Positions 5,965 through 37,481 of a DNA stretch of 38,683 bases are shown in pieces. A program made the position numbers and the translations under genes. The number at the start of each line of letters is the position of its first letter. Position 1 is the first letter of the stretch. The stretch covers positions 1 to 38,683 of the IMG/VR virus record IMGVR_UViG_3300031974_001102, one strand, 5' to 3'. The notes under the pieces are model-generated. The model was not told the DNA's origin. It did not search any database and saw only the letters and a program-made list of their open reading frames with translations. The stretch comes from a virus.

Positions 5965-5982
5965 GTTGTTTAAACAAGTAGT

Positions 5983-17100: not shown

Positions 17101-20100
17101 AATAAACTTCCATCAGGCATACCTCTAGCAGCACCTTCTACATCAGATACTTTTAGCGATAAAGCATCAAAGTTATTTTTATACAAAACTTCTAATGCTT
17201 CTTTTGCAATAACACTGTCGTAATCAATAGCAGCAGCACCACCTGTTAACAACTCTCCTTCTTTTGCTTGTTTTCTGTAAAGATAAATAAACCCATCTGA
17301 TGTCATAACATTGTTATATCCTGCTTGTACAGCAGCCTCTCTACCTTTAGGAGAAACATAAATACTTTCCTGAAAACTATTCATACCTAAAAACACAGCA
17401 TTGTCTATAGCATTTTCTCCTTGAAATCCTACAGCTACATCTAGCATTATGACACCATCATTATCTGTATACACACCAAGCACATGATTTTGCTTAGATA
17501 ACAACGCTATTGTTTCATCATCAAAAAATAAATTGTCTATTTGATTGTCTATATAATCTGCAATAGAAACATTTTGTTCATTAGCTTTAGCAGTTATTTC
17601 ATCTATCTTTCCTAATGGAAACTCTTTTTCTTTATAAGTAGATACAAATACTTCTGCATCTGAAGGCGCTCTTTTTTCTAAATCTAAATATTTTGCTGCA
17701 TCTAAATCAACACTAAAACCACCAGTTTTTTCTATAGCTTCACCCATAGATGAATACAATTTTTCATCATATCCTATAATGTCACCTTTAGCTTGTGCTT
17801 TTATTTTCTTGCTAGTGATATTTAACTTGCTTTCTTGTACACCTTCTTTAATAAAACTTTTAAGATTGACATTGTTAATAGCAGCATTAATCATATAATC
17901 AGAAACTTGTCCATTGTAATTAGTTCCTAATAGATATGATTTAACTAACTTCTCTATAGCAGGATATTCCATAGTTTGAAACTTCTTTAGTGATTTAACA
18001 TCAATAAGATTTTTTAATAACTCAACATCATCAGGACCAAACTGTGTAGTAAATACTATTTCTCCTAAGTTGTTATAAAACTGTGCTACTTGGTCCTCTC
18101 TAACTCTATCTCCAAACCAACCTAATGATTTATTAGATGTCATAGCTAATCTGCGTAATGGATGTGTAAAAGCATTTATCTTACCACCATATGCTGCTCG
18201 TAATGCCTCTTCTGGTGCAATACGCAACATAAGTGCTAAACGAAACATCCAAGCAGGTTTTAATAATTTGTTTTGTAAATCATCAAACAAACTATCAATA
18301 GGTCCTTTAGGTTTTAAAGTTAATCTTCCTGCAGTAGAGTTTTGTATAAGTGCTTTTCTTGGTATCTTAAAAGCATCAGCCCAATTCATGTCTGCTATCT
18401 GTCTAGGTTTATTAACCCATGCTCGTAAATAACTATCTGTAGGTCCAATAAGAGTTTGATGTGCTTTTGTAGCTTGTATTACATCTCTAGGGTCAATAAG
18501 TTGACTTAGGTATGATTTAGAAGCCTGTGACAATAAGTGCATACTAGGTACTGCTTCAAATACAAATCGTTTAACATCTTCTGGTTTTACTTCTATTCCA
18601 GTAAGCTCAAAATGTTTTTGTATATCTGGGATTAATTTATCTATTCTTTTTTTTACTTTGACACCATTAAAAGCAATAGAACCACCTGCACTGTTTCCAA
18701 AGAAATCTCTTAACTCTTCTATCTGTGCGTGATAGTTTTCTTGTTGTTTAACAAAATCTTCTACATCTACTTTGAGGTTAGGGTTTTGTTCGCCTACAGA
18801 TTTAGCTATTGCTTTATTTATCCTAAATGTAACCTCATCAAGTTCTGCTTGTGTAGTAGCTTGTAACACTTCTCGTGAAAAAGCACCTCTTGTCTTAGCA
18901 TCTGCAAACGCTAGTTTTAACATATCATTAGCATTCTTAGAGGCTTGTTCTATGTCATCAATAACCATTGTTGTTTCTGGTCTAAGTTGCATAGCTCGTT
19001 TAACATGGCGAGGAAAAAACTTAGTTCTACCTAATTGTGTTCCTGCACCAAGCAATCCCTTAGCAGGGTCATCTTTAGATAAAAACATTCCTGCAAACTT
19101 TCTAAGTGGTGCTACATCTGTACTACCACCCATTATCTTAAACATTGTATTAAACAATTCGCCCATAGCTGTAGGTCGTGCAGGAATTGCATTTAAACCA
19201 AAGTTAAGATTATTAACAGATAGTTCTCTAACTCTGTCTAATTCTGCTTGTACATTTTTTGGTACATATTCTTTTAAGATGTTAAATACATTATCAAACT
19301 GTGTATCTGTTAGATTGCCACCTTTAGCAACAATATCTAATACATCCCATACATGAACTGGGTCATCTACTGCTAACAAGACTTCTTTTACAGAAGCAGG
19401 TACTGCATCAAATTCTTTGATGTCATTAAGAAAAGCCATACCTTCATCACCTTGTAATTTAGCTATAGCATTACCAAAGTCTTGACCCCATTTAGTTTGT
19501 CGTACATCATCTACAGTTCTTCCATAATATAAAGTACGATTGTATCTACCAGTTTTTCCTGGTACAAAACTTTTAAGGAATGTAGTTGTTGGACTAGCTG
19601 ACTTTAAAGCCTTTTGATTAGCAGATACTAATGTTCTCATAGCTGTTTTTACACCTGCACCATACATCAACGCTAAGTTCGTTGGGTCACCTGCAAGTCT
19701 AAAAACACCATCAAGTATTCCAGATACGACATTGTAGCCAAGTGAACCTGGCTCTGCCATTTGTACAGCAATAACACGACCTGGTGATATATTTACTTTT
19801 GTACCTTCTTGTGATGTGTACTTGTATCTATCTTCTCTTTTGTCATACAACTGTGTAATAGGTAAACCATATCTATTTACAGCAGCTTGTGTAGCTTGAC
19901 TTTCTGTCTTACCTCTTCTTATTTCATCTAAATACACTTGTGTCTGTGTAGGGTCTATTGATTTAGGAATAAATCCTGTACCTAAGTTAAGAGGTTTACC
20001 CTGTCTACTTTGTGCTAAAGCTAATCTAAATTCATTCTTTCCATAAGCATCTCTTGCTTGTTTAAACTTCTCCCCTACTCCACCACCATAAACACGATTA

Positions 20101-24973: not shown

Positions 24974-25071
24974 TTCTTATACTTTTTACATTGTTTGTTT
25001 AAACAAGTAGTAATTCCCTTGTTACTATCGTACTCTAATGGTATGCCACACATAGGGCATTGTACTTTCAA
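24970..25071 (-). CDS. Zinc-ribbon microprotein, 33 aa (TTG start)
   Basis: A TTG directly after the preceding TAA opens a frame encoding (M)KVQCPMCGIPLEYDS, then TCLNKQCKKYKK. CxxC and a later CLNKQC make a compact zinc ribbon. It ends in ATGA overlapping the terminase start. The palindrome TTGTTTAAACAA (24995-25006) supplies the Cys-Leu-Asn codons. Operon fit and the Cys pattern support a real gene; the weak upstream ribosome site and rare start make it less certain. It may bind nucleic acid or assist terminase. Confidence 0.5.
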   Translation of the reverse strand: MKVQCPMCGIPLEYDSNKGITTCLNKQCKKYKK

Positions 25072-25585: not shown

Positions 25586-25828
25586 ACACAAAACCTCACC
25601 GAAGTGAGGTTCTGTTCGTACAGTGTGTCCAATACTGTTCTACGAGTTTGTGGGCAGTTGTTTCCTCAATTAAAGGTCCTCGCACCCACTCGCTCTATGA
25701 AAGAAAATGAAATTCAATCAACCTTATCCATACATAACAATCCTGTGAACTGTCTTAGATGATTAAGCTATCTTTCTTTTCAAATTCTACCTATATCCCC
25801 ATACAGGTAACCCAGGACTTTCCTAGGT
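25586..25828 (-). ncRNA. Structured leader or small RNA upstream of the late operon
   Basis: Minus-strand transcript of about 240 nt predicted between an extended -10 promoter and the UUCG terminator. Near its 5' end it forms CUAGGA-AAG-UCCUGG (25812-25826). Next is a 9-bp hairpin with a GGGG loop (25788-25809). Both contain one G-U pair that would be an A-C mismatch if the plus strand were the RNA, which fixes orientation. A further pairing around 25651-25698 (CGAGT with ACTCG, CCC with GGG) adds structure. It could be a stable phage RNA or an antitermination-type leader controlling late genes. No known family is recognised. Confidence 0.55.
25592..25611 (-). terminator. UUCG-tetraloop intrinsic terminator ahead of the late operon
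   Basis: Minus-strand AACCTCAC-TTCG-GTGAGGTT is a perfect 8-bp stem closed by C(UUCG)G and followed by TTGTGTTATAG. It ends the structured leader and stands only 39 bases before the first late gene. Late transcription must therefore start after it or read through it. Confidence 0.8.
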
Positions 25829-25834
25829 ATATTT

Positions 25835-25865
25835 AATATATCACAGTTACAGAGTTAGGTGTAAA
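25835..25865 (-). promoter_or_regulatory. Candidate late leftward promoter
   Basis: Minus-strand TATATT (25835-25840) preceded by TGA makes an extended -10. TTTACA (25860-25865) is a -35-like box with a long 19-bp spacer. The predicted start at about 25828 falls just before the first hairpin of the leader RNA, which supports it. Confidence 0.5.
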
Positions 25866-25888
25866 AAAAATTTTTTTAGAAATACTCA

Positions 25889-25916
25889 TGGGTCTATCAG
25901 TTGCCTGGCAGACCCA
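25889..25916 (+). other. Hairpin at the start of the rightward untranslated region
   Basis: TGGGTCT and AGACCCA form a 7-bp stem around a 14-nt loop that itself contains TGCCTGGCA. It follows an A8T7 tract. No U-run follows, so it is not a plus-strand terminator. It is the first of a series of plus-strand hairpins reaching to 26.4 kb. Confidence 0.5.
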
Positions 25917-25961
25917 ATCGTATACACAATAGAAAGGGCTTAAACTATCCGAAAGGAGGAC

Positions 25962-26096
25962 ATGAATAATCCTTACCATAACTATACCATATACAGATTT
26001 TATGCAAGTAAAAATGATGGGATTTCTGTGAAGGGCGTAGGCGAAAGGAGGAAACTCCTACTATACAAAAACCCCATCAATAAATACTACCATTAA
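25962..26096 (+). CDS. Possible small gene, 44 aa, inside structured region
   Basis: ATG preceded closely by AAAGGAGGAC opens MNNPYHNYTIYRFYASKNDG and continues to KYYH and TAA. The ribosome-site spacing is short (two to three bases), and the frame is embedded in nested inverted repeats that could themselves explain the conservation of the sequence. No family is recognised. It could be a leader peptide. I keep it at low confidence. Confidence 0.3.
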   Translation: MNNPYHNYTIYRFYASKNDGISVKGVGERRKLLLYKNPINKYYH

Positions 26097-26118
26097 AACA
26101 ATAAGGTGGTATAGTTAT
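25978..26118 (+). ncRNA. Nested three-stem RNA-like structure
   Basis: The outer stem ATAACTATACCA (25978-25989) pairs perfectly with TGGTATAGTTAT (26107-26118), with a further U-G pair inside. Within it TGATGGG (26015-26021) pairs with CCCATCA (26073-26079). Inside that is GGAG-GAAA-CTCC (26047-26058), a GNRA tetraloop hairpin extended by GTA/TAC. All stems nest without conflict. No known RNA family is recognised. Confidence 0.55.
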
Positions 26119-26129
26119 ACGACAAGCAC

Positions 26130-26192
26130 GATAGATTTCAGACACTTAGAAAAAATCTATCAGATAAAAACATCACTAAGTGGACTTGTCTG
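26130..26192 (+). ncRNA. H-type pseudoknot
   Basis: Stem 1 is GATAGATTT (26130-26138) with AAATCTATC (26153-26161), 9 bp. Its loop holds CACTTAG (26143-26149), which pairs perfectly with downstream CTAAGTG (26176-26182). An alternative CAGACA (26139-26144) with TGTCTG (26187-26192) is next to it. Such crossing pairs point to functional RNA, 12 bases after the nested element. Confidence 0.5.
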
Positions 26193-26303
26193 ACCATGGT
26201 AACTAGCGTTAAAGGCTATTACTTCATATATAAAAATAAGTCATAAATAGATTTGTTATCGGTTTGGGAGGGATGACACAGGGTTAGCTGTATCTATATG
26301 TTT

Positions 26304-26378
26304 TTACTTATTTAAGTAACTTACTCTAAGAGTTTAAACAAGCACCTTAGAGGGCTGTTTTACTGTGGGGTTAACAGC
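26304..26378 (+). other. Three consecutive hairpins, one with GTTTAAAC apex
   Basis: TTACTTA/TAAGTAA (26304-26319) is a tight hairpin. CTCTAAG/CTTAGAG (26324-26352) encloses GTTTAAAC in its loop, matching the hairpin family between early genes. GCTGTT/AACAGC (26354-26378) follows. Together they make this part of the gene-free region strongly structured. Confidence 0.5.
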
Positions 26379-26406
26379 ATATTCTAAGAGGACACACATA
26401 TAATAT

Positions 26407-26540
26407 AAGGGCGTAGCCACCTTAAACCCCCCCATACTATATATAGTCCTAACACAAGCGTACACAATATATAGTACAACCACACCACACCACAACATAT
26501 AGTATCTGTCTAGTTATGGTAGTAATTTGGTAATAATTAC
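26407..26540 (+). other. Short repeats and palindromes, possible origin or regulatory DNA
   Basis: No gene is seen. The stretch holds AAGGGCGTAG (9 bases shared with 26032-26040), a C7 run (26427-26433) and the palindrome ACTATATATAGT. Two further ATATAGT copies follow to 26505, with CCACA repeats (26480-26494) and the hairpin TGGTAATAATTACCA near 26530. AT-rich palindromes plus small repeats are typical of phage origins, but no initiator gene or known motif confirms it. Confidence 0.3.
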
Positions 26541-26661
26541 CAGTAATTTAAACAAAGACAGTAAGAGGATAGACAAACATTAATAATTCAAAAATGTTTC
26601 AACCTTCCAAATTCCAGACACTCAAAAAATACAGCGAGGCTGTTTAAACACACAGGCAAAA

Positions 26662-26736
26662 AACACCACGCCAGATTTATATCAATGTACTAACCACGCC
26701 AGAGAGAGTATGTACCAACCTAGCCAAAGATAGTAC
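26662..26736. repeat. Iteron-like imperfect tandem repeats
   Basis: Two adjacent 25-bp units, 26687-26711 and 26712-26736, share GTAC.AACC..GCCA.AGA.AGTA. The core ACCACGCCAGA also occurs at 26665-26675, exactly 28 bases before its copy at 26693-26703. The repeats lie 10-100 bases upstream of two TTGACCA copies (26745 and 26767). They may bind a replication initiator or transcription factor. Confidence 0.45.
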
Positions 26737-26766
26737 AAAAAGTCTTGACCACTTTTCGAGGCAAAA

Positions 26767-26796
26767 TTGACCAAGTTTTTTTAAAAAAAATAAAGT
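26767..26796 (+). promoter_or_regulatory. Weak rightward promoter candidate
   Basis: TTGACC (26767-26772) and TAAAGT (26791-26796) are separated by 18 bases of mostly A/T. A second TTGACCA lies 22 bases upstream. The -10 matches only four of six positions, but the location at the start of the rightward genes fits an early promoter. Confidence 0.3.
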
Positions 26797-26862
26797 TTTT
26801 TTTCTACCTACCTGTAAAAGCCTATAAACACTGGATATTTCCCTAATTATTTTTTATCAAAT

Positions 26863-27045
26863 ATGACAACAAAAGTTGGCATAAAACACAGACCTAGTAA
26901 TGTTATTAGTAACACAATAGAGAAGGACTTAGACTTCTACTTAAAAAAGCCTAAGAAAGTGGTCGAGGCAAGTACAGTTGAAATCGTGTTTCAATTAAAT
27001 AGTAATACAGCGAGAGTAAGCCCAAAGAGAAAAGCCAGAGTGTAA
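26863..27045 (+). CDS. Doubtful small protein, 60 aa
   Basis: Open frame MTTKVGIKHRPSNVISNTIE to a basic C-terminus (SPKRKARV). It is Lys/Val-rich without cysteines. No ribosome site precedes the ATG (TTTTTTATCAAAT), unlike all convincing neighbours, which carry GAGG or AGGAGG. The basic tail and its position behind a promoter-like site keep it possible; it could be a small nucleic-acid-binding protein. Otherwise it is chance. Confidence 0.3.
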   Translation: MTTKVGIKHRPSNVISNTIEKDLDFYLKKPKKVVEASTVEIVFQLNSNTARVSPKRKARV

Positions 27046-27112
27046 TCTGGAAAAACTCTTCTTCTAGCGAAGATTGGTCGAGAGGCATAAAACAACACCA
27101 CTAGCGAAAAAA

Positions 27113-27142
27113 TTGACATTATTGATTTAGATTGGATATTTA
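27113..27142 (+). promoter_or_regulatory. Rightward promoter candidate ahead of the small-gene operon
   Basis: A perfect TTGACA (27113-27118) is followed after 18 bases by TATTTA (27137-27142), or after 16 by GATATT. It stands about 190 bases upstream of the first rightward zinc-finger gene and would place the 27.2-27.3 kb stem structure in the leader. Confidence 0.4.
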
Positions 27143-27187
27143 CAGAAACTATGACACTGTACGCATATTTCATTAGCCTTACTATCG

Positions 27188-27304
27188 GCTAGTTACTGTA
27201 ACTAGCTAGAAACTTACTAAGGAATTAGCCTAAACCAAATATTAGGTTAGACATTGTGAGTAGATTGGTACACGCTTACAAATAACTTTGTAGGTTTCTA
27301 GCTA
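27188..27304 (+). ncRNA. Long-stem RNA element in the leader of the rightward operon
   Basis: GCTAGTTAC-T-GTAACTAGC (27188-27206) is a perfect dyad. Overlapping its end, TAGCTAGAAACTTAC (27203-27217) pairs with GTAGGTTTCTAGCTA (27290-27304), 15 bp with one U-G. The stem encloses 72 nt that include CCTAA/TTAGG. The arrangement (long stem closing a short folded domain) is the same as in the three modules at 29.86-30.31 kb, although the sequence differs. No gene is present in 27046-27334. Confidence 0.45.
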
Positions 27305-27334: not shown

Positions 27335-27508
27335 ATGGTATGTGATAATTATGAAAATTGTGGAAACTTTGCAAGTTTCGAAAATTCTATTGAATATGAT
27401 GAAGGGCAATTTATTAAAACTTTAATTTTTTGTTCTAGTTGTTATTCAACAGAAATCAAAAAGCGTGATTTATTATCCAATAATGGCGTTCAACAATTAT
27501 CAATTTAA
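27335..27508 (+). CDS. Cys-rich small protein, 57 aa, zinc-finger-like
   Basis: MVCDNYENCGNFASFENSIE, then LIFCSSCYSTEIKKRD. Two Cys pairs (C3/C9 and C33/C36) are spaced like a small zinc ribbon. AGAGGC lies seven bases before the ATG, the same ribosome-site style as the next genes. It is the first clear gene of the rightward operon and is followed by a palindrome hairpin. Zinc binding and a regulatory role are inferred; no family is known. Confidence 0.6.
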   Translation: MVCDNYENCGNFASFENSIEYDEGQFIKTLIFCSSCYSTEIKKRDLLSNNGVQQLSI

Positions 27509-27516
27509 TTAGCTAA

Positions 27517-27542
27517 CTACACATTGTTTAAACAGTGTGTAG
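27517..27542 (+). repeat. Intergenic hairpin with TGTTTAAACA apex, copy 1
   Basis: CTACACA-T-TGTTTAAACA-G-TGTGTAG: the arms are perfectly complementary and the T/G step next to the core is a U-G wobble in plus-strand RNA. It occupies the gap between the first two rightward genes. No U-run follows, so it is not an ordinary terminator. Confidence 0.7.
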
Positions 27543-27578
27543 ATAGGTAGTTAAAACTATCAGAAAGTAAGAGGCGTA

Positions 27579-27764
27579 ATGAGAGATATCAAACACACAA
27601 AGGAAGAAATCATAGAAGAGCTTAAAAATGGTCTTAGTCTTATAGACCAAGCAGATGACATGGTTTCTTACAGCGAGTGGCAAGATGATGTTGATATACA
27701 AGATGAATTTTACGAGCTTATAAGCGAGGTAAGTTCATTCATTGAGCAACTCAAACTAAAATAA
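27579..27764 (+). CDS. Small acidic helical protein, 61 aa
   Basis: MRDIKHTKEEIIEELKNGLS, then acidic helices to IEQLKLK. It is almost certainly all-helical with heptad-like spacing, so it may dimerise. Ribosome site AGAGGCGTA lies just before the ATG. It stands alone between two palindrome hairpins. No family is recognised; early host-takeover or regulatory proteins of phages are often of this type. Confidence 0.6.
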   Translation: MRDIKHTKEEIIEELKNGLSLIDQADDMVSYSEWQDDVDIQDEFYELISEVSSFIEQLKLK

Positions 27765-27768
27765 AATA

Positions 27769-27834
27769 TCTAACTACTCATTGTTTAAACAAATAGTGAG
27801 TAGATAGATACACTTATAATTTTTATGAGTGTAT
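27769..27834 (+). repeat. Intergenic palindrome hairpin, copy 2, plus a second hairpin
   Basis: CTACTCA (27774-27780) pairs with TGAGTAG (27797-27803) around TTGTTTAAACAA (27781-27792). The stem continues outward (ATCTA/TAGAT) with one mismatch. It is followed by ATACACTTATA/TATGAGTGTAT (27808-27834), 11 bp with one U-G wobble. Both lie between the 61-aa gene and the SprT-like gene. Confidence 0.65.
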
Positions 27835-27867
27835 TATTAAATAACACAAAGAATAGAGAGGCAAATA

Positions 27868-28572
27868 ATGGAAACTAAAGAAAAAGTTACTACACAAGAA
27901 GAAATCAAATTCTTCGAAGGTACAAGAGAAGAGTGGCTTAACAAAGTTGCAGACTTTATCTATGATGAAATCAAGAAAGAGTTCGTATGCGAGGTTGAGC
28001 GTGACAAAATCAAACTATCTGTCGGCTTTATGCCAAAAGGTAATGCGAAAGCTATTGGTATCTGTCACTACGAAAGTCACAGCGAGGGCGATTACAGAGA
28101 AATCTTTATATGCCCAACTCGTTCTGGTACTTCTCTAGCCAACAGTATTGAAACAGCGCAGATTGTCGCCCATGAGGTCACTCATGCAATACTTCCAGTA
28201 GGTACAGGTCATAATCGTAGATTTTCTAAGATTATTATCGACTACTTAGGCGCAGAGGGTATACCTACAGCGACAGTTAGTGGCGCTAAGTTCACTTTAC
28301 TTGTACAAGACTTCATCAAAGAGTTAGGCTTACTTCCTCATTATGCTATCAAGCAACAAGAGGGTAAGGGTTCAACTACAGTTGCAGTTCGTTGTACAGG
28401 TGCAGAGGCTTGTATCGGTGCTAGTGACAAATCAATCGCGCAGGGTTGGGGTTTAATCAGCAGAGTATCTATGGCTGTGTACAAGAAAGTTGGCAACAAC
28501 TTTAGGTGCATGGCTTGTGGTAGCGAAACTGTTGTAGAATTACCAATCAACCTACGCAAAGATTATCAATAA
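27868..28572 (+). CDS. SprT-like zinc metalloprotein
   Basis: 234 aa. HEVTH (residues 102-106) within IVAHEVTHAILPVG is the HExxH zinc and catalytic motif, with H115 of GTGHNRRF as a possible third ligand. The C-terminal part carries C176, C182, C214 and C217 (RCMACGSE), forming a zinc ribbon like that of SprT-family proteins. SprT-like proteases act on DNA-bound or crosslinked proteins, so a phage role in freeing DNA or cutting host proteins is plausible but inferred. The ribosome site is GAGAGGCAAATA. The gene is alone between palindrome hairpins. Confidence 0.65.
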   Translation: METKEKVTTQEEIKFFEGTREEWLNKVADFIYDEIKKEFVCEVERDKIKLSVGFMPKGNAKAIGICHYESHSEGDYREIFICPTRSGTSLANSIETAQIVAHEVTHAILPVGTGHNRRFSKIIIDYLGAEGIPTATVSGAKFTLLVQDFIKELGLLPHYAIKQQEGKGSTTVAVRCTGAEACIGASDKSIAQGWGLISRVSMAVYKKVGNNFRCMACGSETVVELPINLRKDYQ

Positions 28573-28575
28573 ATA

Positions 28576-28636
28576 ATCGTAGAGCGCTTGTTTAAACAAC
28601 GAGCGTTCAACGATATTTATTAGGCAATAATAAATA
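28576..28636 (+). repeat. Intergenic palindrome hairpin, copy 3, plus AT hairpin
   Basis: ATCGT (28576-28580) pairs with ACGAT (28610-28614), and CGCT with AGCG, around TTGTTTAAACAA (28588-28599). Next, TATTTATT (28614-28621) pairs with AATAAATA (28629-28636). As at copy 2, a palindrome hairpin is followed by a second hairpin just ahead of the next ribosome site. Confidence 0.6.
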
Positions 28637-28660
28637 CAAACAGAATAGAGGAGGCAACTA

Positions 28661-29086
28661 ATGAAAGAGCAGTATGTAATACAGGCTAAAGATGTATTTA
28701 GTTTATATACAGATGTCAGTATTGTTACAGCGCAAAGCAACGAGGAGGCGTTACTTCAGTGGCGTTCACTCAATGGCAAAACTGGTATCAATGTAGATGT
28801 TAGATATATCGAAGAGAGTATTAAAGTTCAGCGCTTAGGTTTACTAAGTGACAACTACTGGAGAGATATCCGACTACTCAACAACTCTGTAACTATGAAA
28901 CACAATATTGGTGTTACTCAACAAGAAGATTGTGGCAACATCAAAGACAAACACTTCTTAACCTTAGATGAGTTAAGAAGAGGGTTAAGTAGAGCAGAGT
29001 TCAGAGATTTTATGGGTATGGACTTATCGCCAGAGGACAAAGCATACTTAAATAAGGAATTAGATTTATCTAATCCACCTTTCTAA
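28661..29086 (+). CDS. Hypothetical protein, 141 aa
   Basis: MKEQYVIQAKDVFSLYTDVS: the first ~60 residues form alternating beta strands with a helix (SNEEALLQWRSLNGKTG). This is a small alpha/beta unit also hinted at in the 51-, 56- and 56-aa proteins further right. The C-terminal part (LTLDELRRGLSRAEFRDFMG) is helical. GGAGGC lies seven bases before the ATG. No enzyme motif is seen and no family is recognised. Confidence 0.6.
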   Translation: MKEQYVIQAKDVFSLYTDVSIVTAQSNEEALLQWRSLNGKTGINVDVRYIEESIKVQRLGLLSDNYWRDIRLLNNSVTMKHNIGVTQQEDCGNIKDKHFLTLDELRRGLSRAEFRDFMGMDLSPEDKAYLNKELDLSNPPF

Positions 29087-29100
29087 CTGTAGTTAGCTAG

Positions 29101-29124
29101 ACCTCGTTGTTTAAACAGCGAGGT
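29101..29124 (+). repeat. Intergenic palindrome hairpin, copy 4
   Basis: ACCTCG-T-TGTTTAAACA-G-CGAGGT: the perfect arms are again different in sequence from the other copies, with the same T/G wobble next to the core. TTTAT follows, so weak termination is possible here. An upstream dyad CTAACT/AGTTAG sits at 29084-29097. Confidence 0.7.
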
Positions 29125-29173
29125 TTATGGTAATTACAATCAGTGATTATCAGCAAAATATTATGGAGGCATA

Positions 29174-29648: not shown

Positions 29649-29673
29649 CTTCACTGTTTAAACAGGAGGACTA

Positions 29674-29838: not shown

Positions 29839-29843
29839 AGTTA

Positions 29844-29866
29844 CTACTTGTTTAAACAATGAGTAG
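29844..29866 (+). repeat. Palindrome hairpin, copy 6, leading into the RNA block
   Basis: CTACT (29844-29848) pairs with AGTAG (29862-29866) around the TTGTTTAAACAA core (29848-29859). The right arm is also the beginning of the closing stem of RNA module 1, so the two structures would compete or be alternative states. Confidence 0.5.
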
Positions 29867-29994
29867 GTAGCTTGTAACACATAAGAGAGAATAGATGACA
29901 ACTAAGCATAAGCGTATCTCTTAGTTCGGTAGTAGGAAGTTGGAAACGCTACCAATGAGCAATTAAAAACAACTTGTGTGTTACAAGCTATCTA
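29864..29994 (+). ncRNA. Tandem RNA module 1
   Basis: TAGGTAGCTTGTAACACA (29864-29881) pairs with TGTGTTACAAGCTATCTA (29977-29994). TAAG/CTTG continues the stem to 22 bp including U-G pairs. The loop of about 90 nt has two hairpins: TAAGAGA/TCTCTTA (29882-29922) and GGTAG/CTACC (29927-29953). The whole lies in a gene-free stretch. It is a plus-strand RNA candidate without a recognised family. Confidence 0.6.
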
Positions 29995-30041
29995 TTAGTA
30001 GGACTAGGTTCTCAATGCCCTGTTTATCCTAATACCGAAAG
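29995..30041 (+). other. Spacer between RNA modules 1 and 2
   Basis: TTAG(TA)GGA (29995-30003) can pair with TCCTAA, with a two-base bulge, giving a hairpin with a pyrimidine-rich loop. No gene or promoter is seen. Confidence 0.35.
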
Positions 30042-30120
30042 TAGGTAGCTTGTAGCACACAAGCAGTTGCAAATGTGATTAGAGATATTGCGTTCTAATC
30101 AGTGTGTTACAAGCTATCTA
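30042..30120 (+). ncRNA. Tandem RNA module 2
   Basis: TAGGTAGCTTGTAGCACA (30042-30059) pairs with TGTGTTACAAGCTATCTA (30103-30120), 18-19 bp with two G-U pairs. The A-to-G change against module 1 keeps pairing only if plus-strand RNA forms. Inside is an 8-bp hairpin TGATTAGA/TCTAATCA (30076-30101) and a short GCA/TGC hairpin. Confidence 0.6.
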
Positions 30121-30229
30121 TAACTTAGATATTGTATCGTGAGATACAAGATAGTCGGATAACGAAGTGTAATTAGCTTCGGCTTGTAGTGAGTAAATAG
30201 AAACGCAACGACTTCACTACCAAAAGTTA
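30121..30229 (+). ncRNA. Four-way-junction-like domain between modules 2 and 3
   Basis: TAACTT (30121-30126) and AAGTTA (30224-30229) close a domain with three hairpins. These are TTGTATC-GTGA-GATACAA, CGAAG/CTTCG around nine bases, and GTAGTGA (30186-30192)/TCACTAC (30214-30220). The outline recalls a cloverleaf, but it has no tRNA signature (no T-loop TTCGA, no CCA-like end). It is probably part of one larger RNA. Confidence 0.5.
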
Positions 30230-30230
30230 G

Positions 30231-30307
30231 TAGGTAGCTTGTAGCACATAGGATATAACGCCTAACAGCGTTCATATATGTCAAACCTGTGTGTTACAAG
30301 CTATCTA
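30231..30307 (+). ncRNA. Tandem RNA module 3
   Basis: TAGGTAGCTTGTAGCACA (30231-30248) pairs with TGTGTTACAAGCTATCTA (30290-30307). The stem is extended by TAGG/CCTG where module 1 has TAAG/CTTG: an A-U pair there is replaced by G-C here, a compensatory change. The loop holds the hairpin AACGC/GCGTT flanked by ATAT/ATAT (30253-30279). Confidence 0.6.
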
Positions 30308-30424
30308 TGTGGGTGTACGCATAAGGTTGGAAACTCTAACTTAGAATTAGAGATATGAAATACCATATAAACAATGTAATTCCAGTTTGGTACGCATAAG
30401 CCCATGAGATAGTTGTTTAAACAG
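30308..30424 (+). other. 3' part of the RNA block with hairpins and a GTACGCATAAG repeat
   Basis: The direct repeat GTACGCATAAG occurs near 30315 and 30391. TGGG...CCCA can close the stretch. Hairpins CTCTAA/TTAGAG and ATATG/CATAT lie between, and TGTTTAAACA occurs at 30414-30423. No gene is seen before 30509. Confidence 0.4.
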
Positions 30425-30712: not shown

Positions 30713-31166
30713 GGGAAATTGTTACGAGGCAAACTTTAACGAGTTTACAAGCAGAGTAAATAACAAACCAAAGTACAACAATACAAACAAAGTATTAGTA
30801 CATGCTATGCGAGAGTGGGCAGGTAAGGGTTCAGAGATGTGGGGTGGACACGCCTTCATATTAGATAAGGACACAAACTGGGTTGATGATTACTCAAACA
30901 ACAAGCACTTGTCAGTTGCTAAAGATGAGATATTCGAGAAGTGGAATATCCAAACAGAAGGTAAGTTTATGTACTTTGAATATGATTATGTTCAAGCCAT
31001 AGACAAAGCAATAGAAACTGGACACTATGGTTGTTGGGATATTTTATTCGAGCAGTGGCAAAATGAAAATCATATAGAGTATATGAAAGATTATTTTATG
31101 CCTAAGTTTCAGCCAAGATTACACACAATGTACGAAGAGTACGATAAGAAGAAGGGGGTTGTTTAA
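30705..31166 (+). CDS. Hypothetical protein, 153 aa, possible papain-like fold
   Basis: NCYEANFN near the N-terminus (C6), LVHAMREWAG (H33), WGGHAFILD (H49) and NWVDDYS (D61/D62) give a Cys, His and Asp order. It is reminiscent of small papain/transglutaminase-like phage and bacterial proteins (pattern CYxN...GHxW...D). Catalysis is not established. The C-terminal half is helical and aromatic-rich. The ribosome site is AAAGGAGGAATA, and the stop codon lies inside the palindrome at 31159-31170. Confidence 0.45.
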   Translation: MAKGNCYEANFNEFTSRVNNKPKYNNTNKVLVHAMREWAGKGSEMWGGHAFILDKDTNWVDDYSNNKHLSVAKDEIFEKWNIQTEGKFMYFEYDYVQAIDKAIETGHYGCWDILFEQWQNENHIEYMKDYFMPKFQPRLHTMYEEYDKKKGVV

Positions 31167-31169
31167 ACA

Positions 31170-31764: not shown

Positions 31765-31874
31765 TGACAGATAGTTTATGTTTCGTATGTCACGAAATAC
31801 CAAATCAATTTATAATCTACGACCAAGTTTTAGTTTGTTGCGTAGATTGTGCAAATAAGAAAGGACTTGTTTAA
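31764..31874 (+). CDS. Zinc-ribbon microprotein, 36 aa
   Basis: MTDSLCFVCHEIPNQFIIYD then QVLVCCVDCANKKGLV. Two CxxC knuckles (C6/C9 and C26/C29) make a minimal zinc ribbon like the 33-aa one at 24970. It begins in TAATG with the preceding stop. Its own stop is supplied by the palindrome at 31867-31878, reading GTT TAA. Confidence 0.55.
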   Translation: MTDSLCFVCHEIPNQFIIYDQVLVCCVDCANKKGLV

Positions 31875-31877
31875 ACA

Positions 31878-32568: not shown

Positions 32569-32701
32569 AAGTATAACACTTGGACAATCACATATTATGA
32601 ATAGTGAAATAAAAGAACTTGAAATTGAATTAGGTGCTGTTAGAACTTTTATTGCAAAAGTGGATAAAGCAATAAAGAACAAGAGAACACAGGCTGTTTA
32701 A
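32501..32701 (+). CDS. Coiled-coil small protein, 66 aa
   Basis: MMKELILLRAELLKWEEELI, then more helix to VDKAIKNKRTQAV. Leu/Ile heptads point to a dimeric coiled coil. Ribosome site AGGAGGTGGA stands before a double ATG; the second ATG (32504) is as likely. Its stop codon is embedded in the strong palindrome hairpin (32685-32714). Confidence 0.6.
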   Translation: MMKELILLRAELLKWEEELIGFKSITLGQSHIMNSEIKELEIELGAVRTFIAKVDKAIKNKRTQAV

Positions 32702-32714
32702 ACAGCTTGTGTTT
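32685..32714 (+). terminator. Palindrome hairpin that looks like an intrinsic terminator
   Basis: AACACA-G-GCTGTTTAAACAGC-T-TGTGTT is an almost perfect dyad (one G-U) followed by TTCT. It carries the TGTTTAAACA core in its centre and the stop codon of the upstream gene. Of all copies it is the one best fitting transcription termination. A 16-bp variant, TGTTTAAATTTAAACA, follows at 32729-32744. Confidence 0.65.
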
Positions 32715-32728
32715 TCTAAGTAAATACT

Positions 32729-32753: not shown

Positions 32754-32924
32754 ATGGGTAGTATGAAATACTTAGTAAGAAGTCTTTCAATCTTTGATGC
32801 AAGTGTGATGACATGGGAATTTAATTCACATGATGAGGCACTTCAAAAAGTCAGAGAATTAAAAGACACAGGTGCTAACTATTTTATAGTATCTATCGAA
32901 CAGATAGAAACTGTAAGCAGTTAA
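32754..32924 (+). CDS. Small alpha/beta protein, 56 aa
   Basis: MGSMKYLVRSLSIFDASVMT then WEFNSHDEALQKVRELKDTG and a final strand. It matches the strand-helix-strand plan of the 51- and 56-aa proteins at 31170 and 31878. No ribosome site is seen before either ATG (M1 or M4), so it may be leaderless or coupled. It stands alone between a terminator-like hairpin and the next ribosome site. Confidence 0.5.
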   Translation: MGSMKYLVRSLSIFDASVMTWEFNSHDEALQKVRELKDTGANYFIVSIEQIETVSS

Positions 32925-32954: not shown

Positions 32955-33158
32955 ATGACCGAAGGTCTATTTAGTGAACCAAAAAATCTTAAAAACTGGG
33001 CTATCAAACTTGCAAATGCTTGTGGTGGTCAAAAGGTTGAGAAATCTATTTTCCTTACAAAGACAAATCCACAACGCATAAGAGAGTTGTTAGATGAATT
33101 TGTTGAGGAACATAACAAACAAACACTTGCAGTAATGCAAGAGCTAGAGGAGGAATAA
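32955..33158 (+). CDS. Small helical protein, 67 aa
   Basis: MTEGLFSEPKNLKNWAIKLA then FLTKTNPQRIRELLDEFVEE. Helical and charged with a single Cys. AAAGGAGAAGAG is the ribosome site. It is coupled to the next gene by TAATG. No family is recognised; the N-terminal half could be a small DNA-binding helix bundle. Confidence 0.55.
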   Translation: MTEGLFSEPKNLKNWAIKLANACGGQKVEKSIFLTKTNPQRIRELLDEFVEEHNKQTLAVMQELEEE

Positions 33159-33451
33159 TGGTAAAAGCTAACGCAGATAAAAATGCAAGAGGTTTTCATA
33201 ACCTACCAATAGGTACAAAGATATCATTTTTATATCCATACAATCCAATTACAAAGCAACATGATGAAGATGATGTTTTGTTTTTAGAAATAGATGACAT
33301 GGAGAAAGCGCAGTTTAAACAAATAACTTTATACAAAGGTATGAATACCAAATTAATTACTTTTATAAAGATAGGCAGTACGCAACAAAGTGCGTATGAA
33401 ACCACTGTAGGCGTTAGCAAAGTACAAGAGAGGATAGAAATTGCCGAGTAA
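33158..33451 (+). CDS. Beta-rich small protein, 97 aa
   Basis: MVKANADKNARGFHNLPIGT then KISFLYPYNPITKQHDEDDV. A short basic N-terminus is followed by alternating strands (FLEIDDMEKAQFKQITLYKG) and a C-terminal helix. GTTTAAAC at 33313-33320 is read as part of QFKQ. It overlaps the next, TTG-started gene by 11 bases. Function is unknown. Confidence 0.55.
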   Translation: MVKANADKNARGFHNLPIGTKISFLYPYNPITKQHDEDDVLFLEIDDMEKAQFKQITLYKGMNTKLITFIKIGSTQQSAYETTVGVSKVQERIEIAE

Positions 33452-33602
33452 AGAAGAAACATGGCATTTAACTTTAACAATAGAAGTTAAACCAAAAAAT
33501 TTATTAAGAGATAAAGAACATATACCAAGTTTTTGGACAGGCTACATAAGTAATGTGGCAGGTCACAAAGTTATATCATCACAATATAAGGAGGTGAAAT
33601 AA
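33441..33602 (+). CDS. Small protein, 53 aa, TTG start
   Basis: A TTG seven bases after GAGG starts (M)PSKEETWHLTLTIEVKPKN, and the frame continues to HKVISSQYKEVK, with TAA overlapping the next ATG (TAATG). The overlap at both ends and good ribosome site support a real gene despite the rare start. Mostly beta, unidentified. Confidence 0.5.
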   Translation: MPSKEETWHLTLTIEVKPKNLLRDKEHIPSFWTGYISNVAGHKVISSQYKEVK

Positions 33603-33796
33603 TGTCAGACACTTTGGGTATGCTTAGAGAGGCGCAAAGCCTTTATGAGAGAAGTAAAGCAAACTTAGATGTAACAATCGCAAATAGAAAGAAACTTATA
33701 AGTGCTTGTTTAAACAATGGGCATAGCGTTATAGAAATAGCAAAAGTTTTAAACCTTAGTAGACAAAGGGTTTACAAAATAATGGAGAAGGAATAA
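33602..33796 (+). CDS. Small helix-turn-helix protein, 64 aa
   Basis: The C-terminal half NGHSVIEIAKVLNLSRQRVY is a resolvase/sigma-type HTH (residues about 40-62, with recognition helix SRQRVYKIMEK). The N-terminal helix (REAQSLYERSKANLDVTIAN) could dimerise. The ribosome site is AGGAGGTGAAATA. The palindrome at 33706-33717 lies in the gene as Cys-Leu-Asn-Asn. It is the only obvious DNA-binding regulator in the window and so a candidate reader of the palindromes, which is a guess. Confidence 0.6.
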   Translation: MSDTLGMLREAQSLYERSKANLDVTIANRKKLISACLNNGHSVIEIAKVLNLSRQRVYKIMEKE

Positions 33797-33798
33797 AT

Positions 33799-34701
33799 AT
33801 GGATAAAGAAACACATAAGAAACTAATAACAAACTTTCCGAAGAGCGCTGTTAAACAAGCGCCAAAGGGTAAGTTTGGTAACTATGTACCTCATCACTTA
33901 TATACAAAGAGATTAGTAGATACCATAGCAGGTAAATACAACTTCTCTTTTGATGAGATACGAGATAAAGATAATTCTATTGTAGGCGCTAAGTGTGTAC
34001 TAGAAATAGAAGGCTTAGGCAGAGTAGAAGAAGTCGGAGATGTTGATGTTCATGCAATTAATAGAGGCATTACAGAGAGCGAGATATTAAAACTTGCTGT
34101 CAGTGATGGCATTAAAAGATGTTGCATGAGATTTGGTATCGGCTTAGAACTGTGGACAGGAGATGTTAGCGAAGAAGAACATTACGCAGGAGAGTATAAA
34201 GAAGTCGTTACTCAATTAGAAAACTCTTCCCAACAGGTCGTAAAAGAAACTAAAAAAGATGACTATAAAGTCAGAATTAATAACGAACTTGAACACGCAG
34301 AGAAGGACAATCTAAAAAGAAACTCATATAAGCTAGAGGCATGGAACTTGTTTAAACAAACAAACGAAACAGATATGTCTAAGTGGTCAGACTTTGAGTT
34401 AGATAAGTTCTTAGATACATTCTACGAAGTTCAAGCTAAATATAAAGCAGAAGAGGAGAACATTCCCTCTACAGAATTAGTAGAAGAAGTCTTTGGCGAG
34501 GTCAAAGATGTTGGTAGATATTGCCCTCAATGTAATTCAATGGAATGGATAGAGGACAATAGAGAGAAGAAAGCAAGTGATAGTAAGTTTGAGAATATTC
34601 CAGACTTTACTTGTAGCAACTATGGTCAATCCAATGGCTGTGGTTGGGGAGGCTATATCGACAGCAAAGGCGATAGAGCAGTACCAACACAATGGCTATA
34701 G
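33799..34701 (+). CDS. Rad52-like single-strand annealing protein
   Basis: 300 aa. The core YVPHHLYTKRLVDTIAGKYN, a DxVGAKCVLEIEGLGR strand pair and SDGIKRCCMRFGIGLELW match the Rad52/22-like annealing fold of phage recombinases. About 130-230 is a charged linker. The C-terminus carries a zinc ribbon (RYCPQCNSMEWIED and TCSNYGQSNGCGWGGY). It would anneal complementary strands in replication and recombination. No RecE-like exonuclease partner is adjacent; the nuclease-like gene at 35656 could be the partner. AAGGAATAAAT is the ribosome site. Confidence 0.72.
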   Translation: MDKETHKKLITNFPKSAVKQAPKGKFGNYVPHHLYTKRLVDTIAGKYNFSFDEIRDKDNSIVGAKCVLEIEGLGRVEEVGDVDVHAINRGITESEILKLAVSDGIKRCCMRFGIGLELWTGDVSEEEHYAGEYKEVVTQLENSSQQVVKETKKDDYKVRINNELEHAEKDNLKRNSYKLEAWNLFKQTNETDMSKWSDFELDKFLDTFYEVQAKYKAEEENIPSTELVEEVFGEVKDVGRYCPQCNSMEWIEDNREKKASDSKFENIPDFTCSNYGQSNGCGWGGYIDSKGDRAVPTQWL

Positions 34702-35009
34702 AGCCAATCAATATTAATCTGGATAAACTCAAAGCAAAACTTAAAGAGCGTTATCCAGATTATGATTTTGATAAACCAGTACAATTAGATAGGAAGTGTA
34801 AGTTAGTTCCAGAAGGAAGGTCTTGCCCAAAAAAGCAAGACCGACCTATTGTAATTGACAACAACAAGAACGAAATGTGTGTCTACTTGTTTAAACACCT
34901 AGATGAGAAGTCGCAAATTAAGAGCGACAGAAGATGTTATGCAATAGTCACCACCGAAGAAGAGCGTACAAAGTACGAGCAAGGAACATGGTATGAAGGT
35001 AATAGATAA
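34692..35009 (+). CDS. Hypothetical protein, 105 aa
   Basis: MAIEPININLDKLKAKLKER then YPDYDFDKPVQLDRKCKLVP. Basic and Cys-containing (C36, C45, C62, C81), perhaps a zinc fold. It overlaps the annealing-protein gene by 10 bases and the next gene by 17, so it is made with them. The palindrome core at 34888-34897 reads as LFK. It may assist recombination, as suggested only by neighbourhood. Confidence 0.5.
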   Translation: MAIEPININLDKLKAKLKERYPDYDFDKPVQLDRKCKLVPEGRSCPKKQDRPIVIDNNKNEMCVYLFKHLDEKSQIKSDRRCYAIVTTEEERTKYEQGTWYEGNR

Positions 35010-35235
35010 GATATATGACTTTGAGAATGGCGACAAATATGTTGTTGAAACAAAGGAATGTTTTCACTGTGGCAAGACAGGAACAGTAGAGATATTTACG
35101 CAAGAGATGTTTTGGCTACATCAGGGCAAACATATTCAAGAGGCTGTTCAATCCTTAAATAAAGATTTAAGAGAGCAGATGATTACAGGCACACATCCTC
35201 AATGTTGGATAGAGATGTTTGGAGAAGAGGAATAA
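34993..35235 (+). CDS. Conserved CxxC protein, 80 aa, actinophage-type
   Basis: ECFHCGKTGTVEIFTQEMFW, then GKHIQEAVQSLNKDLREQMI and TGTHPQCWIEMF. The order CxHC-G...G...IQ.A...(S/N)...EQ.I.G.HP.CW is one I recall as a small conserved protein in many actinobacterial phages, of unknown function. A zinc site from CxxC and the His-Cys end is likely. It starts inside the preceding gene with AAGGA upstream, and its stop overlaps the lysozyme start (TAATG). Confidence 0.6.
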   Translation: MKVIDKIYDFENGDKYVVETKECFHCGKTGTVEIFTQEMFWLHQGKHIQEAVQSLNKDLREQMITGTHPQCWIEMFGEEE

Positions 35236-35666
35236 TGTATGGAATTGTACTTAGTTCTTTAATGCTATGTGCAATACCAAACAGCGAAACATTAAATAAT
35301 ATAAGGGCTTATGCCACTTGTTTAAACAATAACAAAAAGATTAATCATGTTATTGAATGGCAAGATGACATAAGCCTTTATTTTGAAGATGAAGATGTTA
35401 GAGAGGCACTGTTAATTGTTTATTGTGAGAGTTCTGGTAATCCTAACGCTGTCAATATAAACAAAGACAATTCTCGTGATGTTGGTCTGTTTCAGTTTTG
35501 GGATAACACATGGCAGTGGTTGGAAGATAAGTTAGACTTTACAGGCAATCGTAAGACACCAAGCCTCAACATCAAAGTAGCAAGTTGGTTGTACTACAAA
35601 AGTGGTTCACACCATTGGAACAGCAGTAGAAACTGTTGGGAGGAAAATATTATTTATGAGCAGTAA
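35235..35666 (+). CDS. Secreted lysozyme / transglycosylase-like protein
   Basis: 143 aa from the ATG at 35235 (MYGIVLSSLMLCAIPNSETL), chosen for GGAGAAGAGGAATA and TAATG coupling. A short hydrophobic N-terminus resembles a signal or anchor. The domain is SLT/RPF-like: VYCESSGNPNAVN carries the expected catalytic Glu (E65), and GLFQFWDNTWQW and KVASWLYYKSGSHHW follow the family order. It would cut peptidoglycan glycan chains. It is expressed with early genes, away from the holin and amidase, so it may act at entry, on superinfection or as host-wall remodelling. The palindrome at 35318-35329 encodes CLNN. Confidence 0.65.
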   Translation: MYGIVLSSLMLCAIPNSETLNNIRAYATCLNNNKKINHVIEWQDDISLYFEDEDVREALLIVYCESSGNPNAVNINKDNSRDVGLFQFWDNTWQWLEDKLDFTGNRKTPSLNIKVASWLYYKSGSHHWNSSRNCWEENIIYEQ

Positions 35667-36051
35667 TAAGAAATTTGATTTGGACTTAGCTAAAGGTATA
35701 CAAATGGAAGAAAAACTAGCCGAGTTCTTTGAAGGTAAGTTAGTAGAAGTAAAGAGTGAGAGATATATCTGGGAGAAAACAGGTAACCACTTTTTAGAAT
35801 ACGAAAGCTATGGCAAACCAAGTGGCATAGCTGTTACCGAAAGCGAGTATTGGGCATTGATGTTAGTAAAAGAAATTAATGGCGTTGATGTTCCAGTGAT
35901 GACTTATATTGTACCAGTTGAAACTATGAAAGAGTTAGGTAGAAAATATATTCATACCAAGACAGAAGGTGGAGATGACAATATGAGTAAAGGTGTCTTA
36001 GTGCCTATTAAAGAAATAGCACTAGCTTGTTTAAACAATGACAGGGAATGA
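35656..36051 (+). CDS. Possible PD-(D/E)XK nuclease-like protein
   Basis: 131 aa from MSSNKKFDLDLAKGIQMEEK. The order KGIQMEEK, LVEVKSERY, TGNHFLEYESYGKPSGIAVT and EYWALML is shared by small phage PD-(D/E)XK-like nucleases I recall (E..., EVK, TGN.FIEYE.KGKPSGI..T.ADYW). EVK (31-33) would be the (D/E)xK part; the preceding acid is not certain. It overlaps the lysozyme gene by 11 bases, with GGGAGG 13-16 bases upstream. The last codons lie in the palindrome 36027-36038 and overlap the end of the convergent phosphoesterase gene. Confidence 0.55.
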   Translation: MSSNKKFDLDLAKGIQMEEKLAEFFEGKLVEVKSERYIWEKTGNHFLEYESYGKPSGIAVTESEYWALMLVKEINGVDVPVMTYIVPVETMKELGRKYIHTKTEGGDDNMSKGVLVPIKEIALACLNNDRE

Positions 36052-37212
36052 AGCACCCCTGTCATTAACAAGTAATGTTAATGCGCCAGGATGTGACCAC
36101 AAGCCTGTTCGTTGTGTAAAGTCTAAACTCTTATCTAAACTAGGACATTGAAACCATTGTCTATCGCCCTGTTGTTTCGCACGAAAATGATGATAGTGCG
36201 CAGTTACAAGTATGTGTGCATTACCTGTTGGTAAGAAACCATACATCTGACCTTTCCACCAACTTTCAATCTTCGCCTCTGGATTACCACTACCATTGGT
36301 CATATGACCATGTGTGAATGCCATTTCTTTTCCTTTGACCCCAAGCGTTAAGTGATAACCTTCTGGCACAATGACATCAACTTTTTTATATCTCTCTTTA
36401 TTTGCATTAAAGATTTCTTTCATAATCTCTAAGTGCATAGTGTCTGAATTATCTAGCCTACTTGTTAATACTTGACCTTTAGAACTTCTAGTCATCTCAC
36501 CATGATTTCCTGGAACGCCTGTCAAAATTATTTTGTCTGCTAATGGCAGGAATGTTTCTACAGTTTTAAATATCATAGCTCTAGCTAGGCTGTATTGTTC
36601 CATAAGATTTAAAGAAACATTGTGTGGTTGGCTGTCGTAGAAGAACTTTGTACAGTTTTCTGTGAGGTCACCCATTCCTACTAGATATACTTCATCAATT
36701 TTGTAGCCTATCTTCCTGTAGTTTTTTAATAATTGAACTGCATCTTGTAATGCTATGTCGTATCTCTTGATAGTATTCTCAACTCCATAGTCATCCTTGC
36801 CCAACTGCCAATCACTCATAAAAAAGAAGAAGGCTGTATCGCCACCGAATAATTTATGCTTAGCTAATGGTGGCTTCTTTGCTGCTTGTTTAAACAACTC
36901 TTTATAATACTTATCACGATTAGCAGACTTCCTTCTTACACTTCCTTTAAATGCGTAAAAGGTTTCTACTATACCACCTTTTAATTGTGCGTTCCAAGAA
37001 GATACTTTTAATATCCCATCAATCTCGTATAACTTAGGGTCAAATCCCCAACTACGAAGTATCTCATCTGTCTTACTCTCATAGTTTGGGTCTGTTCCAA
37101 CATGAGTTATTTCACCTGTGCCTGTTGCATGGTCAAAATCAACAGTGGGTTTCCAACCTGCTTTAAAATAGTTATTACTATTCTCTACAGGAATAGATTT
37201 CTTCTTAGACAT
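36031..37212 (-). CDS. Calcineurin-like metallophosphoesterase
   Basis: 393 aa. Motifs of the family are in order: FFFMSDWQLG (D134, with Q136 where DxH is usual), VGMGDLTE, GVPGNHGEMTR, AFTHGHMT and VTAHYHHFRAK. Two metals and a phosphodiester or phosphomonoester bond are the expected chemistry; the substrate (cyclic nucleotide, DNA end or other) is unknown. From memory, SDWQLG-type phosphoesterases are common in actinophages. The N-terminal ~120 residues are a separate domain. AAAGGAGGGTAC precedes the ATG. Its stop codon is inside the palindrome at 36027-36038. Confidence 0.75.
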   Translation of the reverse strand: MSKKKSIPVENSNNYFKAGWKPTVDFDHATGTGEITHVGTDPNYESKTDEILRSWGFDPKLYEIDGILKVSSWNAQLKGGIVETFYAFKGSVRRKSANRDKYYKELFKQAAKKPPLAKHKLFGGDTAFFFFMSDWQLGKDDYGVENTIKRYDIALQDAVQLLKNYRKIGYKIDEVYLVGMGDLTENCTKFFYDSQPHNVSLNLMEQYSLARAMIFKTVETFLPLADKIILTGVPGNHGEMTRSSKGQVLTSRLDNSDTMHLEIMKEIFNANKERYKKVDVIVPEGYHLTLGVKGKEMAFTHGHMTNGSGNPEAKIESWWKGQMYGFLPTGNAHILVTAHYHHFRAKQQGDRQWFQCPSLDKSLDFTQRTGLWSHPGALTLLVNDRGASFPVIV

Positions 37213-37271: not shown

Positions 37272-37481
37272 TTACTTAGATACTTTTTTAACTGGTGGAG
37301 ATATTTTTTTCTTTGCAAAAGACTTCAATACTGACAATACTGCAGCGCCACCAGATAAAGCAGCCACTTCAAGTGTGCTTATATCGACCCCAAGCGCAGG
37401 AGTTATGACAAGTGTTGAAGCAAATGTTTCTACAAAAGTCCAAAGACATCTCTCTAAAAGGTCTTTATACTCTTCACTCAT
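37272..37481 (-). CDS. Holin (r1t-like)
   Basis: 69 aa. LLERCLWTFVETFASTLVIT is one membrane helix, followed by TLEVAALSGGAAVLSVLKSF as a second, then a basic tail (AKKKISPPVKKVSK). The pattern R.LWTFV(E/Q)TF...AA...GG.AA.LS..K is that of r1t-type holins in actinobacterial and Gram-positive phages. It overlaps the amidase stop by four bases (ATGA), forming a classic lysis pair. It would open the inner membrane at lysis time. Confidence 0.75.
   Translation of the reverse strand: MSEEYKDLLERCLWTFVETFASTLVITPALGVDISTLEVAALSGGAAVLSVLKSFAKKKISPPVKKVSK

Follow-up and report, generated by a model that had tools for sequence, protein, structure and literature searches.

A repeated eight-base DNA word accompanies an SprT-like gene across phage families and may form a network of operator-like sites

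In a viral record from IMG/VR, analysed over its whole length of 38,683 bases (hereafter, the window), a short palindromic core is found between consecutive early genes, at the apex of hairpins whose arms differ in sequence and still pair. The original prediction was that selection in this phage acts on an RNA hairpin whose self-complementary loop is fixed, and not on a DNA site alone. The question raised by this locus is what is being maintained, the hairpin, the core as a DNA word, or both, and which protein would read it. The late genes of the window, including an SU10-type capsid gene and the terminase, lie on the minus strand, and the early genes, at about 26.8-36 kb, on the plus strand. 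Between these divergent blocks, about 1.7 kb (25600-27300) is almost devoid of convincing ORFs and contains two core copies, possibly representing the early promoter or origin region. No named phage close to or near-identical with the window was found by DNA comparison. The nearest relatives of its terminase and exonuclease are those of actinobacteriophages, at 24-30% identity, and therefore an actinobacterial host is possible. Additionally, no integrase was recognised in this apparently lytic phage, which makes an immunity role improbable for the window.

The core, GTTTAAAC, is present in 24 copies in the window, against 1.4 expected, a count reached in none of 100 shuffles, and it mostly lies within the longer context TGTTTAAACA (20 copies, with none for the reversed control). 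The window core is a palindrome, and its positions are given here without strand. In the late region, copies are found in an intergenic position with a counterpart in relatives (5968-5975), inside the late ORF 11699-12619 (11944-11951), inside an ORF of 2138 aa in the context TGTTTAAACT (20060-20067) and close to the terminase start (24997-25004). One copy without hairpin is located in the leader region (26642-26649) and another is intergenic (30415-30422). Several are placed at gene starts, either just 5′ of a Shine-Dalgarno sequence (29656-29663; GTTTAAACaggagg) or ending one base 5′ of an ATG start codon (31161-31168 and 31869-31876). Other copies are embedded in early coding sequences, namely ORF 33158-33451 (33313-33320, AGTTTAAACA), the helix-turn-helix ORF 33602-33796 (33708-33715), the single-strand-annealing-protein ORF 33799-34701 (34350-34357), ORF 34692-35009 (34889-34896) and the lysozyme-like ORF 35202-35666 (35320-35327). 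Further copies lie at the ends of convergent genes (36029-36036), in the exonuclease codons for Leu-Phe-Lys (36888-36895), which form the basis of the synonymous-site test described below, and inside the amidase ORF 37478-38164 (37684-37691; TGTTTAAACG).

Arms of any kind were detected at only about 7 of the 24 copies, with about 17 lacking them, in-gene copies included, and strong hairpins, defined by a threshold of -14 kcal/mol or lower, were found at 5 of the 24, compared with about 1% of random positions. Therefore, the claim that the arms always pair is wrong for the whole set, and the apex position of the core describes a minority of copies concentrated between the first early genes. For that minority the arms were found as they had been quoted, all on the plus strand. 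The hairpin at 27495-27563 carries the core TTGTTTAAACAG (27526-27533) at its apex between CTACACA/TGTGTAG, with -19.3 kcal/mol in sense versus -12.3 in antisense and a covariance model score of 31.4 bits. A second hairpin (27770-27806; core 27783-27790; -17.5 versus -12.5 kcal/mol), located 85 bases upstream of the SprT-like gene, has the arms CTACTCA/TGAGTAG out of register, the right arm being shifted. Directly 3′ of the same gene, ATCGT..ACGAT with CGCT/AGCG encloses the core 28590-28597 (hairpin 28568-28619; -21.0 versus -13.7 kcal/mol). The best example of the covarying element in the window is the hairpin at 29079-29146 (core 29109-29116; ACCTCG/CGAGGT), which scores 73.2 bits and folds at -20.7 versus -10.3 kcal/mol, and a further one lies at 32684-32715 (core 32696-32703; AACACA/TGTGTT; -23.5 versus -15.3 kcal/mol). 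Weaker arms, CTACT/AGTAG, surround the core 29850-29857 (29843-29864; -11.8 versus -4.1 kcal/mol). In the leader region, a weak hairpin (26324-26352) formed by CTCTAAG (26324-26330) and CTTAGAG (26346-26352) holds the variant core AGTTTAAACA (26331-26340), so that the copy at 26332 departs from the constant core that had been described. The T/G step noticed beside the core was located at 27526 and 29109. In a nearby non-coding stretch (29864-30308), three units of about 80-130 bases each follow one another, bounded by TAGGTAGCTTGTA(A/G)CACA and TGTGTTACAAGCTATCTA, and could constitute an array of structured RNAs.

The sense and antisense strands were compared across 19 core-rich relatives, the window included, whose strong hairpins are mostly intergenic and confined largely to the early region. 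After masking of the core and two bases on either side, the sense strand gave the more stable fold for 39 hairpin copies and the antisense strand for 6, and T/G outnumbered C/A at the ±2 positions by 26:4 in hairpin copies, compared with 21:35 among the remaining copies (Fisher p=1.1e-5). When 22 sites were aligned, a single structure of 21 pairs with a bulge and a mismatch accounted for them: 88% of the cells pair and 62 show compensatory changes, against 19.5±3.5 in shuffles and no more than 16 when the register is slid. Because orthologous and paralogous sites stand together in this alignment, the cells do not count as independent events. The covariation expected among related phages is thus present, and the hairpin arms are a sense-strand RNA feature in the window's clade. 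It had also been noted that few hairpins precede U-runs; in fact, no U-run, the feature of intrinsic terminators, was found directly 3′ of the window hairpins. For this reason, mRNA processing or 5′-end protection is the most likely role of the nested hairpin. A long covarying sense-strand duplex between early genes, as in RNase III-type sites, is present in this clade, and no Rfam family matched at gathering score.

Selection on the core itself was followed in relatives, where near-complete core-rich genomes carry 14-34 copies each, or 14-19 when the figure of up to 34 is assigned to other carriers, and sister lineages 0-3. At the exonuclease site, Leu and Lys are identical in all core-rich and core-free relatives, and all 51 core-rich relatives write Leu-Phe-Lys as (T/C)TG-TTT-AAA-C, giving GTTTAAAC, whereas the same Leu is encoded by the A-ending codons TTA or CTA in 29 of 29 core-free relatives. 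On the exonuclease tree, at least three changes between the core-rich and core-free states are forced. No strong hairpin is found at this copy in the window; the core is selected as a DNA word, also where no hairpin exists. In the core-free relatives, no replacement word was found, nor was avoidance of GTTTAAAC seen, with 12 copies in about 0.8 Mb, close to background or slightly below. In the core-rich relative G042 (L262-L264) and in phage Venkman (L302), several copies sit exactly between the Shine-Dalgarno sequence and the ATG, as in GGAGT-GTTTAAAC-ATG. No earlier report of this word in phages was found in the literature searched, in which subscription journals were thinly covered.

The hairpin and the core could also be told apart directly. 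Searching 54 loci with a core-masked covariance model gave 48 matches (E up to 1), almost all of them within the window's clade, and 4 of the 31 matches that were read out, from three relatives, kept the stems and the internal loop around an unrelated, C-rich apex (UUCGACCCCCUCGAA and similar; L083:1892-1958, L083:2087-2154, L080:2054-2120 and L079:17782-17848). Conversely, the core-rich relatives G042 and G048, as well as phage Venkman and others, carry the word essentially without hairpins. The core and the RNA hairpin are two elements, nested yet separable. The reading in which the mRNA hairpin with its fixed self-complementary loop is the selected unit, serving processing, protection or loop-loop contact while the RNA keeps the core constant, accounts for the sense-strand bias and the strong arm covariation in the window's clade, and it is valid for the arms alone. 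As a general explanation, however, it is contradicted by the many copies without hairpin, by the near absence of hairpins in G042/G048 and Venkman, by the core kept at synonymous sites within genes, by word copies in actinophage promoter spacers, which are untranscribed from that promoter, and by the same hairpin without the core, so that it is left with a very small probability. That part of the original prediction which concerned sense-strand arms thus stood, and the part that tied the core to them did not. This case shows that a DNA site may lie nested within an RNA hairpin and the two may pass as one element.

The presence of the word goes together with that of one gene. The SprT-like gene (27868-28572, plus strand) encodes a protein of 234 aa with a HEVTHA..H metalloprotease signature and a C-terminal zinc ribbon, and it is present in 19 of 19 core-rich and 0 of 12 core-free relatives, a separation matched by no other family. 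Among 116 IMG/VR loci retrieved by SprT protein similarity alone, 102 were enriched for GTTTAAAC or GTTTACAC (P<0.001), with totals of 463 versus 15.4 expected for the former and 391 versus 19.8 for the latter, whereas reversed control words gave 28 versus 55 expected and no enriched locus (0/116). These loci include one bacterial contig and some lie close to each other, so that 116 overstates their independence and the set of 23 lineages is the safer count. In that set, the SprT-like family is the only one common to all 23 motif-bearing lineages (4742 ORFs compared). Of the named phages that carry the SprT-like gene, 14 of 16 contain the word, counted as GTTTAAAC or GTTTACAC: 34 copies in Venkman (1.7 expected), 20 in Dinoroseobacter phage R26L (0.02), 16 in Pseudanabaena phage Pan1 (0.02), 26 in Arthrobacter phage JohnDoe (0.14) and 23 in Microbacterium phage Barnstormer (0.04). 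The bacterial contig among the IMG/VR loci is a Caballeronia prophage contig that carries the gene and 6 copies of GTTTAAAC in its 42 kb; only a few copies occur elsewhere in the 7.4-Mb genome. The two named phages that carry the gene without the word, Dismas (L303), which has no annotated integrase, and Quenya (L316), show an altered zinc-ribbon signature (KSRSGKS). In Nanhaivirus genomes (L318-L325; Pan1, R26L), a second repeated hairpin, ATAACTCG..CGAGTTAT, was observed beside a word copy upstream of the SprT-like gene, CGAGTTAT occurring 16 times in R26L versus 0.36 expected.

Other candidates were considered and rejected. The 64-aa protein at 33602-33796, with a resolvase-type helix-turn-helix, is conserved in core-rich and core-free relatives, being present in 9 of 12 of the latter. 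The protein at 32754-32924 first looked core-specific, and it was then found in the core-free relatives G047 and G051 and is absent as a shared family in other lineages; that at 28661-29086, which had given the same impression, is not common to other lineages. A different phage or host protein could nevertheless bind the word, with the SprT-like protein acting on that binder, for instance as an antirepressor protease like ImmA, and helix-turn-helix or sigma-like genes near the SprT-like gene in some actinophages would fit such an arrangement. This is improbable, given that no second family, helix-turn-helix proteins included, is shared among the 23 lineages and that the zinc-ribbon signature changes where the word is absent; moreover, the hosts of the carriers span several bacterial phyla, making a common host binder improbable. 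The eight-base palindrome, a PmeI site repeated across genomes, could instead be a tag for modification, restriction, replication or packaging, without a regulatory role. This was judged the hardest of all the readings to credit, since no matching methyltransferase is shared among those lineages, GTTTACAC is not palindromic, and the word is placed at promoters and gene starts.

The SprT-like protein of the window matches phrog_6361 (E=1.7e-19). Its match to the Pfam SprT-like family PF10263 (E 0.008, 16.5 bits) is below the gathering score of 25.6, which is passed by its relatives in Venkman (38.3) and Dismas (26.5). In the alignments, H102, E103, H106 and H115, corresponding to HExxH and the distal His, are invariant, and the C..C pairs of the C-terminal ribbon, four Cys or Cys/His, are present. 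The ribbon signature KKQ(S/T)TR..K.EC..CG...R.T..W is strongly conserved in most lineages, from which the window's clade departs with a GKGSTT variant. An AlphaFold2 model (pLDDT 80) predicts a metalloprotease-like core followed by the ribbon region. The fold search returned only weak metalloprotease matches, the best being selecase (E=0.08), and no solved homologue was found by sequence. Phage genomes often carry genes annotated as SprT-like protease, and no phage role for such a protein was found in the literature searched.

The placement of the word in other carriers points to transcriptional control. In promoters of temperate Arthrobacter and Microbacterium phages, matched by consensus only and all of them outside the window, the word occupies the spacer in 7 of 8 TTGCGN-N15-19-TAYNNT promoters of Zeta1847 and 4 of 4 of Barnstormer, and directly 3′ of the -10 element in JohnDoe (5), DrManhattan (5) and JuneStar (2). 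Positions of this kind, between -35 and -10 or adjoining the -10, correspond to the anatomy of an operator, as far as consensus matching can tell. Additionally, of 31 non-redundant loci, 27 have a word copy in the 400 bases that precede the SprT start. The SprT-like gene adjoins or lies near the integrase gene in JohnDoe, JuneStar and integrase-bearing proteobacterial phages. It is also common to the Cluster AZ/EH phages, which were described as homoimmune, with 'currently unidentified repressors' (PMC8758107). An alternative is that the SprT-like protein is a sequence-addressed protease, which would dock at GTTTAMAC and cleave DNA-bound or crosslinked proteins, such as host silencers, crosslinks or stalled RNA polymerase, so that promoter copies would serve to clear and not to block. 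The invariant HExxH and distal His, the spread of word copies through coding DNA and the precedent of SPRTN as a DNA-activated protease (PMC5127644) are consistent with this. However, the word lies in or next to nearly every matched promoter of Zeta1847 and Barnstormer and upstream of the SprT-like gene itself, a placement typical of a repressor site, which leaves the addressed protease unlikely.

The explanation that we favour, with a probability of roughly 0.63, is that GTTTAAAC/GTTTACAC is the DNA word of the SprT-like protein and forms an operator- and stoperator-like network controlling phage transcription. The phage-encoded protein would read double-stranded GTTTAAAC (GTTTACAC in other lineages) and occupy some 15-30 of its copies in each genome. 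At promoters they would be operators that block initiation, those between or inside genes, often at gene starts, would damp elongation in a stoperator-like manner, and one copy would feed back on the SprT-like gene. In temperate members the protein would be the immunity repressor, whereas in apparently lytic phages such as the window it would switch early transcription off. A small number of intergenic copies in the early region of the window's clade are, in addition, enclosed as the loop of a distinct sense-strand RNA hairpin. That the SprT-like protein reads the word and represses is suggested by the operator anatomy, the ribbon change where the word is absent, the repressor gap in Cluster AZ/EH and the proximity to integrase genes. 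Several observations weigh against it. SprT homologues elsewhere are DNA-protein-crosslink proteases and not repressors (SPRTN, PMC5127644), and the catalytic HExxH, needless for a pure repressor, is invariant. The window's clade has the GKGSTT ribbon and would yet read the same word, and 14 of the 116 loci are not significantly enriched, although most of them keep the KKQ signature (these loci are mostly short or have few copies). Finally, the orientation bias of GTTTACAC is inconsistent between genomes (20:6 in JohnDoe, 8:15 in Barnstormer), unlike that of L5 stoperators.

A more specific proposal, which we consider tentative, is that a sequence-specific SprT-like metalloprotease coats the genome-wide GTTTAMAC network, is the missing immunity repressor of AZ/EH-type temperate phages and could be inactivated through its own protease domain upon DNA damage. 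If this is true, the protein would represent a new class of phage master regulator. The link of one gene to one word spans marine, cyanobacterial, proteobacterial and actinobacterial phages and predicts the DNA target of the SprT-like protein exactly. It also names a testable candidate for the repressors of homoimmune Arthrobacter phages, and gives a sequence-only way to recognise the SprT/word regulon in uncultured viruses.

Among known systems, the early RNase III sites of the T7 type lie between successive early genes and form hairpins with internal irregularities, which the irregular hairpins of the window resemble as far as their sequence reveals; unlike those sites, the present hairpins are found only in the window's clade, and most hold a DNA word at the apex. 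SPRTN is not known to recognise a specific DNA word, whereas here a conserved zinc ribbon accompanies one word across phage families. Both proteins share an HExxH metalloprotease domain, and SPRTN is DNA-associated (PMC5127644). The Start-Associated Sequences (SAS) and extended SAS of Cluster K mycobacteriophages are likewise short words repeated at gene starts, a subset of which has inverted repeats (PMC3203893). In the part of that source consulted, the SAS is asymmetric (GGGATAGGAGCCC), with conserved inverted repeats beside it and no binder named (PMC3203893), whereas the arms described here surround the word and differ from one another by compensatory changes. With the mycobacteriophages L5 and TipsytheTRex of Cluster A, the differences concern the word, which in L5 is asymmetric, of 13 bp, obeys an orientation rule and is bound by a repressor with a helix-turn-helix plus a stoperator domain (PMC9283540), whereas here it is an eight-base (quasi)palindrome, with many copies inside genes and an inconsistent orientation of GTTTACAC. 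A repressor of the L5 family was not found, and the linked protein is an SprT-like metalloprotease with a zinc ribbon. The stoperator comparison would therefore be functional and not a claim of family, and it lies in a short word repeated more than 20 times per genome, in promoters and intergenic positions, and in one phage protein proposed to block both initiation and elongation (PMC9283540).
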